Source: Sinisalibacter aestuarii (GTDB lineage Bacteria > Pseudomonadota > Alphaproteobacteria > Rhodobacterales > Rhodobacteraceae). From it: a stretch of 64,000 nt of DNA. Every line of letters starts with the position of its first letter. Positions within the stretch are counted from its first letter, which is position 1. Below are positions 15,372-18,483 of the stretch, piece after piece. The notes under the pieces are model-generated. The model was not told where the DNA came from. It ran no database searches and worked only from the letters and a program-made list of their open reading frames with translations. The translations under genes were made by a program, and so were the position numbers. The stretch spans positions 757,001 to 821,000 of the forward strand of contig NZ_BROH01000001.1 in assembly GCF_027923545.1 (NCBI RefSeq), given 5' to 3'.

Positions 15372-15956
15372 CTACCGCTTGCGGTCGCGCCGCGAGCTCA
15401 TCGGCTGGAAGGCCACGCCCACATGCGCCTCGCAATAGGGTTTGCCCTGTTGCACCGGCAACCCGCAGAACCAGAAATCTTCCGTCGCCGGATCGCCGAT
15501 CGGCCATTTGCAGGTGCGCTCGGTCAACTCCATCAGGGTGAGCTTCTTGGCCGTCTTCTCCACCTCGCGCACCGTCTCCAGCGCCTCGGGGCTGATTTCG
15601 TTGGCCGAGGGCTGCGGCGGCAGCGGCTGGCCGGCGGGAATGATCGGCTTGCGCGCCGGGGCCGGGCTTGGCTTTTCGGCCGCGGGCTTTTCAGTCACCG
15701 GATCGGCCTCGACGGGCTTTTCGGCCTTCTTCGGCGCGGGCTTGGCCTTGGCCGCGGGTTTGGCGGGGGCTTCCTTCGCCGGCGCCTTGGCCGTGGCGGT
15801 GCCGCCGCCCGCGCGGTTCGAGAGCCCGAGCCGGTGCACCTTGCCGATCACCGCATTGCGGGTGACGCCGCCAAGCTCCTTGGCGATCTGGCTGGCCGAT
15901 TGCCCCTCGGCCCACATTTTCTTGAGGGTTTCCACCCGTTCTTCGGTCCAGGACAT
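15372..15956 (-). CDS. gcrA: GcrA cell cycle regulator
   Basis: This 194-residue DNA-binding regulator in Caulobacter acts with sigma70 at promoters carrying methylated GANTC sites. The N-terminal helix-turn-helix is clear (MSWTEERVETLKKMWAEG, SASQIAKELGGVTRNAVIGK). A long Ala/Pro/Lys-rich linker (about 50-125) is followed by the conserved C-terminal sigma-interaction domain with a CKWPIGDP segment and cysteine/histidine residues. The start is ATG 15956, where homology begins. It is found almost only in alphaproteobacteria and supports the taxonomic placement. Confidence 0.96.
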   Translation of the reverse strand: MSWTEERVETLKKMWAEGQSASQIAKELGGVTRNAVIGKVHRLGLSNRAGGGTATAKAPAKEAPAKPAAKAKPAPKKAEKPVEADPVTEKPAAEKPSPAPARKPIIPAGQPLPPQPSANEISPEALETVREVEKTAKKLTLMELTERTCKWPIGDPATEDFWFCGLPVQQGKPYCEAHVGVAFQPMSSRRDRKR

Positions 15957-16071
15957 ATGCCTTGCATCCTCTCGGCAGCGCGCTTGGCGCTCTCTTACAG
16001 CAAGCCCGGATACTAGTCAGCCCCCATCGGGGATACAAGGCGGCTAGGCCCTTGGTGTTCAGTCCCGCCAT

Positions 16072-16197
16072 CTGATCGCGGCATGGCGTGACGACTACAA
16101 GCACAACCGCCCCCCACTCGAACCTCGACGGGCTCATCCCGTGGGAGTATCACCAACGTTTAGGGCAGGACCAAACCCGGAACAGAACTTTCCAACA
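16072..16197 (+). pseudogene. IS3-family transposase (OrfB) C-terminal remnant
   Basis: Translation gives LIAAWRDDYKHNRPP in one frame and then, after a one-base shift, PHSNLDGLIPWEYHQRLGQD in another. Together these match the end of IS3-type DDE integrases (typical form WRDDYN.NRPHSSLGGLTP). The upstream catalytic domain is missing. It marks the left edge of an IS-rich accessory patch between gcrA and cobO. Confidence 0.75.
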
Positions 16198-16354
16198 AAT
16201 TGGGACTCTCAGGGGAGCAGGTCAATCAAACCATGGGATCAAACAGTTAGGGTCAGGACCTATGAACAGGTCCAATCTCAACGGTAGCTTCTACCAAGAG
16301 CGGACGAAAGGCAAAATCCGGGCTATGTCCGGGTTGCAGACAAAGCTGTCATAG

Positions 16355-17302
16355 TCAGGTCGCCGGTTGACTGTCCCGATCACCCAGGGAGGCCTCGCGT
16401 CTACCGACCAGATAGTTGATGAGCAGGGCGATCAGAACGTAGCAGACGATCGTGATGCCCGTTTGCTGTCCCAGCGACGGGCGGCCGTCGCTGAACATTA
16501 TGGCGGTCCCGGCAGCCGGCCCGCTGGCCGTGCCGTTATTCACCTCGATGATCTGGCCCAGGGAAAAATTGTTGAACCAGTGCCAACCCATTGGCATCCA
16601 CAGCGATCCGGTCCTCAGAACCATCCAGCCGAATAGGAGGGCTGGAAGGGCAAAGTTGATGAGGCCCCACCAAGGCCAATCGTTCATCAGCACATTGGGG
16701 TAGTGCGGAAGGGCAAAAGCGAACGCGGTGACGACGACGATCGCCACGGGGTTGGCCGTGAAGGTGCGGACCGCCTGCATGCCATAACCGCGAAAGATGA
16801 TCTCCTCCGCGGTTGTCTGCATGAAGACCTTCGGAATCGCGATCAGGAAGACTGGCAAATAGGTCGCCCAGTGCGGCGCACCGAACGAGATCGGCACCCC
16901 AAGCACCACGGTAAAATAGGTCCAAGACACGATCGCGACGATGAGCGCCGCCAGAATCCCCATCCCGAAATTCCACGCCTCGATTCTTGGCTTGGGGACC
17001 ACGATGCTCCACCAAGGCCGCTTGTGGACCAGCCACACCCAGAGGAACGGAATGAGGATCATCGGAAGCAGGACCAGCATCGCGGCCAGGCTGGCTACAG
17101 CCGGTGGCCATGTAGTGTAGTCGCCCAACAGAGTTATTGGAAGGAAGAACAGTGCCGCCCCATAGTGCATCATCACAATCAGGAACACGAACCCGACGGC
17201 GTAAAGCCACTTGTTCGACCGGCCCTCGAAGGCCCAGCTCAGAAACGATTGCGGGATGCTCCTTTCCCCCTGAACTTCAGAAGTTATTATTGTATAATGC
17301 AC
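16355..17302 (-). CDS. CPBP family intramembrane metalloprotease
   Basis: This 315-residue polytopic membrane protein has about eight hydrophobic helices. The CPBP (Rce1/Abi) motifs are present: EEIIFRGYG near residue 160, a histidine in FALPHYPN near 195, and HWFNN near 243, which together bind the metal in the membrane. Family members process prenylated proteins or bacteriocins, or act in immunity; the substrate is unknown here. The gene lies inside an IS-bounded patch with lower GC content than its surroundings, pointing to horizontal acquisition. The start at 17302 is tentative, since MHYTIITSEVQGE looks weakly hydrophobic and an internal start could be used. Confidence 0.85.
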   Translation of the reverse strand: MHYTIITSEVQGERSIPQSFLSWAFEGRSNKWLYAVGFVFLIVMMHYGAALFFLPITLLGDYTTWPPAVASLAAMLVLLPMILIPFLWVWLVHKRPWWSIVVPKPRIEAWNFGMGILAALIVAIVSWTYFTVVLGVPISFGAPHWATYLPVFLIAIPKVFMQTTAEEIIFRGYGMQAVRTFTANPVAIVVVTAFAFALPHYPNVLMNDWPWWGLINFALPALLFGWMVLRTGSLWMPMGWHWFNNFSLGQIIEVNNGTASGPAAGTAIMFSDGRPSLGQQTGITIVCYVLIALLINYLVGRREASLGDRDSQPAT

Positions 17303-17315
17303 TTGCTGGAGGATT

Positions 17316-17490
17316 AGTCCAGAAAAGTCCGCAGTTTCCCGTTGACCTGACCCCAGGTTTCTCCACCTCTCGGAGAACCTGGGGGTTGGTTTGATGGCCT
17401 TGCACGGCCAGTTTGTTCATCGTTCCTTTCGCCGCAAATTCTTTGGGCGTCAGGTTTCCGGGCGCCGAATGTGGTCTGAACGGCAAGTTG
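17316..17490 (-). pseudogene. Second IS3-family transposase remnant with terminal end
   Basis: On the minus strand, FRPHSAPGNLTPKEFAAKG matches the extreme C-terminus of an IS3 integrase of a different subgroup from the remnant at 16072. About 100 bases of non-coding sequence follow, ending near 17316 in TTTTCTGGACT, which resembles an IS3 terminal repeat. The rest of the element is absent. Confidence 0.65.
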
Positions 17491-17508
17491 CACACGGGCT
17501 GCGAGGGA

Positions 17509-17864
17509 CGCGGCCGACCGCTGACTTTCTTCCTCTCGGGCGGGCAAATGAGCAATGCCAAAGGTGCGCTGGCTATGTCTGGAAGCCTGCTACCTGCCAC
17601 AATGCTGCTCGGCGACAAAGGATATGATGCGGATTGGTTCCGGACGGCGCTGGCAGAGCGCGGCATCAATGCGTGCATTCCAGGCCGTTGTGGACGACGG
17701 AAGCATGCCGGCCACGACACCAGCCCGTATCGCAAACGACATCGCGTCGGGAAACTGTCCGCGTGGTTGAAAGACCGGTGCCATATCGCGACCCGCTACG
17801 ACAGATGCGGTGAACGGTTCGTATCGGCAATCTGCATCGCCACAACCGTCATCTTTTGGTTATG
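17509..17864 (+). pseudogene. IS5-family transposase C-terminal remnant
   Basis: The frame reads RGRPLTFFLSGGQMSNAKGA, then LLGDKGYDADWFRTALAERG and ending CIATTVIFWL, the second half of IS5 (IS427-like) DDE transposases. The N-terminal half is missing and the normal stop is lost, so the frame runs on through the terminal repeat. It directly abuts the right inverted repeat at 17865. Confidence 0.8.
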
Positions 17865-17874
17865 GGTCCTGACC

Positions 17875-18483
17875 CTAGAACTCCACCCCGGCCTGCGCCT
17901 TCACCCCGGCGCGGAACGGGTGCTTGATCAGCTCCATCTCGGTGACCAGATCGGCGATCTCGATCAGCTCGTCCTTGGCGTTGCGCCCGGTGAGGATGAC
18001 ATGGGTCATCCCGGGCTTTTCGTCGCGCAGGAAGGCCACCACCTCGTTCACGTCGATATAATCGTAACGCAGCGCGATATTGATCTCGTCGAGCAGCACC
18101 ATGCGGATGGCCGGATCGCGGATCAGCTCTTTCGACTTTTCCCAGGCGGCGCGGGCCATCTCGATATCGCGGCTCTTGTCCTGCGTCTCCCAGGTGAAGC
18201 CCTCGCCCATCGTGTGGAACTGGCAGATATCGGCAAAGCGGCTTTCGATCAGGTCGCGTTCGCCGGTCTTCATCCCGCCCTTGATGAACTGCACCACGGC
18301 GCAGGGCATGCCGTGGGCGATGGCGCGGAAGATCATGCCGAAGGCGGCGGAGGATTTGCCCTTGCCCTTGCCGGTATGGACGATGATCAGGCCCTTTTCC
18401 TCGGTCTTGGTGGCCATGATCTTGTCGCGTGCGGCCTTCTTCTTGGCCATTTTCTGGGCGTGGCGGTCTGTTTCTTCGGTCAT
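17875..18483 (-). CDS. cobO: Cob(I)yrinic acid a,c-diamide adenosyltransferase
   Basis: This 202-residue ATP:corrinoid adenosyltransferase of the CobA/CobO/BtuR type attaches the adenosyl ligand during cobalamin synthesis. The P-loop appears in IIVHTGKGKGKSSAAFGM (about residues 32-49), followed by MVLLDEINIALRYDYI and GRNAKDELIEIADLVTEM. The C-terminus ends at the family-typical QAGVEF, so the protein looks complete. Its TAG stop is made of TA plus the first base of the flanking IS end, and any native downstream terminator has been displaced by IS sequence. Confidence 0.95.
   Translation of the reverse strand: MTEETDRHAQKMAKKKAARDKIMATKTEEKGLIIVHTGKGKGKSSAAFGMIFRAIAHGMPCAVVQFIKGGMKTGERDLIESRFADICQFHTMGEGFTWETQDKSRDIEMARAAWEKSKELIRDPAIRMVLLDEINIALRYDYIDVNEVVAFLRDEKPGMTHVILTGRNAKDELIEIADLVTEMELIKHPFRAGVKAQAGVEF

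Follow-up and report, generated by a model that had tools for sequence, protein, structure and literature searches.

Elements of the IS5 family are generally regarded as gene-free insertion sequences (IS), and a mobile insertion cassette (MIC) is defined as IS ends without a transposase. Several described systems link an IS to additional genes. Copies of IS that carry passenger genes unrelated to transposition are described as transporter IS (tIS) in parts of PMC3129680 and PMC9330008; the same part of the former names the MIC, and that of the latter the TMo, a single IS with an adjacent fragment. Passenger genes are also carried by transposons of the Tn3 family, as stated in part of PMC7371123, and PMC6514802 deals with an IS427-group element without passengers. 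No IS5-family element with the architecture described below was found in the literature searched, which covered few subscription journals and had ISfinder outside its range.

Here we examined positions 16248-17877 of the window, the whole stretch of 64 kb that was analysed. The segment is, in our judgement, likely to be a decayed cargo-carrying IS5-family element of the tIS kind that went into the CTAG at the cobO stop, and the gene for a CPBP membrane protease was probably carried in as its passenger. As in a tIS, there is one transposase with two ends and an unrelated passenger gene inside, here the CPBP gene between the left end (LE) and the right end; the conserved LE of ~100 bp, which consists in part of a genomic repeat, comes in addition. 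TMo and ISCR-like modules likewise combine a single IS with an adjacent gene, but here a conserved end also marks the far side. The window copy resembles a MIC in having both ends and no whole transposase; a transposase stub remains, however, so that it is a broken element and not a cassette by design. Nor is it a composite transposon, as there is one transposase stub with the right end on one side, and an end without transposase on the left.

Another related system is that of the simple IS5-family members. These likewise have a DDE transposase encoded in two overlapping frames and ends of the GGGTCAGGAC type, and they sit in CTAG with TA on both sides, as the window element would also have done. 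We take these simple members to be the IS427-like group, to which we also assign CTAG insertion with TA duplication. The simple copies in the window's own genome (contig C3) and in Paracoccus albus are ~0.83 kb long, with the left end lying ~65-75 bp ahead of the transposase start, whereas in the window element an LE of ~100 bp and passenger genes precede the transposase.

Terminal repeats and structure of the element

The sequence TA-GGGTCAGGACC at 16248 is mirrored by its inverse ending at 17877. An earlier note on this DNA had reported the repeat and its exact inverse, both next to TA, and they are present as described, with the 11-mers at 16250-16260 (+) and 17865-17875 (-). The inverted arms reach 21 nt with 86% complementarity. 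Matching terminal inverted repeats are a property of the IS5 family, and the ends were compared with copies in the own genome and with related copies. When at most one mismatch was allowed, GGGTCAGGACC gave five matches in the window, compared with an expectation of 1.05, and in 100 shuffles five matches were never reached. The features of the region are listed in Table 1.

Table 1. Features identified between gcrA and cobO in the window
Feature	Position	Strand	Description
gcrA	15372..15956	-	Pfam GcrA, 5.1e-49
IS481-type end (remnant)	16051..16074	.	92% over 24 nt to L060, which has an IS481-type element; E=8e-4
IS3-family remnant, transposase C-terminus and end	16070..16228	+	80% to the IS3 of L277; more matches in own genome
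Other IS481-type end, abutting the IS5 LE	16225..16247	.	94% to L060 over 35 nt (16225-16259)
Left end (LE)	16248..16350	+	TA, terminal repeat GGGTCAGGACC at 16250-16260, ~90 bp conserved inner part
CPBP/Rce1-like membrane protease gene	16355..17302	-	315 aa from GTG; PF02517
IS3-family remnant between cargo and transposase, beginning at an IS3 end	17343..17478	-	85% to the IS3 end of L276
IS5-family transposase C-terminal part and right end	17477..17877	+	DDE_Tnp_1_2, 2.7e-9; terminal repeat 17865-17875, TA 17876-17877
cobO	17875..18483	-	202 aa, intact; Pfam CobA_CobO_BtuR, 8.2e-66; 88-91% identity in relatives
cobO stop TAG	17875..17877	-	right TA and first IS base

The protein enclosed by the repeats is a CPBP membrane protease, as the note had proposed; the Pfam match is to the Rce1-like family with E=2e-17. 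Its motifs EEIIFR, FALPH and HWFNN fit the EExxxR, FxxxH and HxxxN-type residues that we take to mark CPBP/Rce1-like proteins. The note had further placed two unrelated IS remnants between the repeats. This holds for the remnant from 17343 to 17478, an IS3 end, but the other is the C-terminus of an IS5 transposase that runs into the right end itself. For positions 17413-17877, DDE_Tnp_1_2 and DDE_Tnp_1 exceeded the curated Pfam cut-offs, as is expected of an IS5-family DDE transposase, and plasmid matches are annotated as IS5 family transposase. A BLAST comparison aligned the transposase part and right end with L074/L212 (80% over 402 nt). In most of the related copies compared, L146 and the truncated L149 excepted, the transposase ends in TGA; the window has TGG instead, a further sign of decay. 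The module that precedes the transposase in related elements is absent from the window copy.

Left ends in other genomes of the family

We built an HMM of the LE without the window sequence, and it gave a single match in the 64 kb, at 16248-16349 (E=2.2e-19). Positions 16248-16346 match G405, a genome of the same family, in two places with 76-77% identity; weaker matches lie in G270 and G307. On this ~100-bp homology and the match of the window-free HMM we rejected the reading of the LE as a chance 11-mer. Of 394 genomes of the family, 26 gave a match in a model search, the window's own genome among them; the search used stricter filters and scored 10 candidates per genome. In 25 of the 26 at least one match spanned the greater part of the model (start ≤17, end ≥77), and in G286 the inner part only. 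Judging from the named relatives Paracoccus and Sedimentitalea, the host family of the 394 genomes would be Rhodobacteraceae or close to it.

The association of the LE with IS5 components was counted in 33 stretches picked from LE-model matches, mostly ones covering most of the model. Excluding inner-part-only matches, 32 of these stretches contained 35 LE copies (model start ≤17, end ≥77). A pre-transposase module, transposase or right end was found downstream on the same strand in nine, the window included, and upstream on the same strand in none. The other 26 had no module, transposase or right end downstream in the fetched stretch; 25 lacked any such feature, and in L194 an IS5 transposase lies upstream, on the opposite strand. 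A contig end lay within 2 kb of eight of the 35 copies, namely L198 among the nine and seven among the 26. The LE can therefore exist alone, and sequences of the 16248-16346 type may be solitary repeats in other genomes, while the window copy has a matching right end.

Probable cargo-carrying elements of the same class

In all eight loci outside the window, the LE is followed by one or more genes and then by the pre-transposase module of the same IS5 class on the same strand, and five of the eight also have transposase sequence. L212 was found through its LE, and L211, L213, L214 and L215 by way of the transposase or the module; L212, L211 and L213 are seeds of the LE model. L198, L199 and L204, fetched blind by the LE model, still show the module downstream.

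Two of the elements are complete from LE to right end. In the first, L212 (1.6 kb; L074/L212 in G405), the order is LE, an opposite-strand ORF of 157 aa with no Pfam match, module, two-frame IS5 transposase and right end. In the second, L211 (2.85 kb; L144/L211 in G153), the LE is followed by genes for TetR, NAD(P)-binding and anthrone-oxygenase-family proteins, then by module, transposase and right end. L213, L214 and L215 have the module and a truncated or cut transposase, and L198, L199 and L204 the module only; neither transposase nor right end was found in L199 and L204, and the sequence of L198 stops soon after the module. The window element has a transposase stub and right end. The cargo comprises a class A beta-lactamase-like protein, a serine hydrolase and an AraC regulator in L213 (= L147, G061; transposase truncated), an alpha/beta hydrolase, LysR and EamA in L215 (= L149), an alpha/beta hydrolase and MarR in L198, an arginase family protein in L199, a P5C-reductase-like protein in L204 and a T5orf172 protein in L214 (= L148). 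A regulator gene is thus present in four of the nine loci, L211 counted. L219/L146, with amidohydrolase and AraC genes, has a partial LE inside a whole copy of the genomic repeat (repeat R, see below) and was left out of the nine.

The earlier note had suggested that the CPBP gene may have come in as cargo. The suggestion is supported by these eight loci, in which the same LE precedes other genes and a same-class module on the same strand. Because the same LE and architecture recur in other genomes with cargo varying by locus, we favour the cargo-carrying element as the explanation of the window segment. Filled and empty versions of one site were not seen for any of the elements, G405 and G153 each being represented by one genome per genus, nor was a second whole element carrying the same cargo. 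Against plasmids, the LE of L151 gave no match, and the L144 element matched over the transposase part only, among the matches listed (60 of 527).

Two further arrangements were observed around elements of this class. The upstream flank of L211, which contains a tyrosine-recombinase-like gene (by eye) after a tRNA, recurs several times in G153, with repeats spaced by ~108 bp beside some copies. In G171, two identical 1052-bp stretches ~58 kb apart (L217 and L218, at ~2.31 and 2.25 Mb) each comprise the pre-module, an IS5 transposase and the right end, and continue as far as the 3' part of a tRNA-Asn, which is called as a gene in L218 only. The two copies look as if they were the bounds of an island.

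Origin of the CPBP gene

A close CPBP relative was not found among the 60 relatives searched, the best being 31% identical. The six same-genus genomes contain CPBP paralogues at 26-30% only and no orthologue; the arrangement that the note had named as speaking against its own reading, in which the CPBP gene lies between gcrA and cobO but IS sequence is absent, was not seen. One scan of 84,980 species genomes, in which exact peptide seeds were required, returned a sole CPBP relative, from Sedimentitalea xiamensis, at 88% identity. At the DNA level the homology covers 16362-17253 at 89%; it is confined to the gene and starts ~12 nt past the LE. The absence of a close relative in the 60 genomes and the presence of a near one in S. 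xiamensis are a further reason for preferring a cargo element. In the S. xiamensis locus, neither the LE nor the module, the right end or R was found with a cut-off as lenient as E≤10, and no terminal repeat stood above chance. The dN/dS ratio between the two genes is 0.18 (NG86) or 0.14 (YN00), indicating that the CPBP gene has mostly been under purifying selection.

As for its start, the window has ATC where S. xiamensis has ATG, and the open frame goes back to a GTG that lies 15 codons before the ATC (17255-17302 region). Translation may begin upstream of the ATC, or the start may have been lost.

Probable insertion at the cobO stop codon

Together, the right TA and the first base of the IS make up the TAG stop of cobO, as the earlier note had recognized. 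Its statement that insertion at the stop spared CobO is also supported: the gene has its full length, with the stop on a CTAG, the site of two intact related simple copies, both found in C-TA...TA-G (C3:304866-305688 in the own genome and a Paracoccus albus plasmid). The protein is unchanged because the target itself contains the stop. Among same-genus relatives, cobO ends in TTC-TAG in G001 and G005 and in TAC-TAG in G006, that is, in C-TAG in all three readable cases; the match in G003 is without the 3' end of cobO, and G002 and G004 gave no cobO match. Taking into account that cobO of the relatives ends in C-TAG, the target site would be CTAG and the stop most simply TAG both before and after insertion. 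TAG thus looks like the ancestral cobO stop.

The note had predicted that removal of the element and one TA would leave TAA, and that a related genome would show an empty site with one TA. Neither expectation is supported, and TAA at the empty site was rejected. The readable relatives have TAG. The left flank is IS481-like and does not represent the sequence that formerly adjoined cobO; in the relatives the gcrA and cobO genes lie apart, and the junction is a rearrangement breakpoint. Where the TA beside the LE is clear, it is preceded by C in L209, L210, L211, L213 and L215 and by T in L198, L212 and the window; the LE flanks of L199 and L204 are degraded ends. The window has C-TAG on the right and T-TA on the left, where IS481-like sequence replaces the original neighbour.

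Rearrangement at the gcrA-cobO junction

In alignments, the homology to same-genus loci ends at ~16045 on the gcrA side and at 17872 on the cobO side. The two genes lie ~954 kb apart on the same contig in G001. A TPP-enzyme gene (by eye) follows cobO in each of the three relatives whose flanks could be read (G001, G005 and G006; 85-92% protein identity), and an EamA-type gene (by eye) precedes gcrA in G003. The 250 nt before gcrA are alike in G001 and G004 (by eye), not in G002 and G005. In the window's genome, the EamA and TPP genes are found together on contig C8 (L278, G000:C8), with ~1 kb of IS481-type sequence between them that is 78% identical to L060. Both ends of such an element are retained at the window junction, and a 35-nt match to L060 (16225-16259) runs 12 nt into the IS5 left end. 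We presume the IS481 family name for these pieces from their sequence.

The arrangement of these sequences lends good support to a reciprocal exchange by which gcrA and cobO on the one hand and the EamA and TPP genes on the other would have become neighbours, each new joint containing IS481 sequence. The IS copies thus mark a rearrangement breakpoint at the gcrA-cobO locus. IS481 elements mostly make 6-bp duplications, as stated in part of PMC10045372. A clean IS481 duplication at the breakpoints was considered and rejected, the 6-mers beside the ends (CCTTGG, GTTAGG, GCTGGT and GCTAGG) not pairing. The exchange itself may have been homologous recombination or replicative inversion.

Proposed history of the element and alternative explanations

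The intact element would have consisted of the ~100-bp LE, the CPBP passenger on the strand opposite to the transposase, the pre-transposase module, the transposase and the right end. Transposases of this class would act at the two ends and mobilize all the DNA in between, the cargo presumably moving as a unit, and in this way the IS5-type transposase would have placed the element, with the CPBP gene inside, into the CTAG of cobO. A later IS3 insertion with a deletion would have removed the module together with the N-terminal half of the transposase. The damaged copy should no longer be self-mobile and could at most be moved in trans, possibly by a relative with similar ends such as the C3 copy. 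An IS481-type element would have landed beside the LE, and recombination among IS481 copies would have joined the locus to gcrA. The order of events, the DNA-cutting mechanism and the arrival of the CPBP gene with the element are what we infer from these comparisons. Counted against the cargo element are the 26 of 35 LEs with no module downstream, the loci L199 and L204 with a module but neither transposase nor right end, the lack of a module in the window, the S. xiamensis CPBP gene without ends, the T-TA left flank and the absence of a filled and empty site pair among the genomes compared.

We consider it rather unlikely that the two ends derive from different insertions, a solitary LE and an IS5 stub at the cobO stop, which IS-driven rearrangement would have joined with an unrelated CPBP gene. 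Such an origin would agree with the predominance of LE copies lacking a downstream module, with the nature of the patch as a rearrangement breakpoint with IS3 and IS481-type pieces, and with the left TA lying outside C-TAG. On the contrary, the order, strand and class of the parts agree with those of the complete L211 and L212, the two window ends match each other over their 21-nt arms, and the order of LE, gene(s) and module is repeated in the eight other loci; that an LE and a right end of the same class should have come to lie 1.6 kb apart in the correct orientation by accident seems unlikely. That the CPBP gene was resident or otherwise acquired, with IS copies piling up around it, is very improbable: although IS3, IS481-type and IS5 pieces are crowded into 1.8 kb and the S. 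xiamensis gene is without such ends, the same-genus genomes have distant paralogues only, and the similarity to S. xiamensis is limited to the gene, beginning just after the LE.

If a subclass of IS5-family elements carries genes, some with a regulator, as the cargo-element explanation implies, this would be a route of gene spread that annotation of transposases only would miss. Its cargo would range from the membrane protease here to hydrolases, an arginase-type enzyme and beta-lactamase-like proteins elsewhere, and the conserved ~100-bp LE is a usable handle for searches.

A repeat shared by the left end and the pre-transposase module

The inner LE (27-105) makes up one half of repeat R, which is ~165 bp long, and the initial 66 positions of the pre-transposase module make up the other. 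R also occurs whole between genes, and 35 distinct whole copies were aligned; often several lie on one strand, ~1-4 kb apart. Inside the IS element the order is second half, cargo, first half. The position of the halves suggests that cargo may be exchanged by recombination at them. One could go further and suppose an undescribed class of IS5-family elements in this bacterial family, with an exchangeable cargo slot bounded by the halves of R, into which an R-flanked gene would be swapped and then spread by the transposase, a cassette-like capture without an integron; we put this forward as a speculative proposal with a small chance of being correct.

R is partly self-complementary and forms same-strand arrays between accessory genes in G171, G296, G307, G270 and G085 (loci including L222, L224, L186, L238, L230 and L235). 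On account of these arrays we considered whether R is an integron attC site, and found no support for this: the genes between copies face both ways, one copy that was folded was not better than shuffles (z -0.23), and a search of seven R loci with Rfam at the gathering score gave no match for R, only tRNAs. Several of the accessory genes among the R copies are, by eye, adenylate-cyclase-like.
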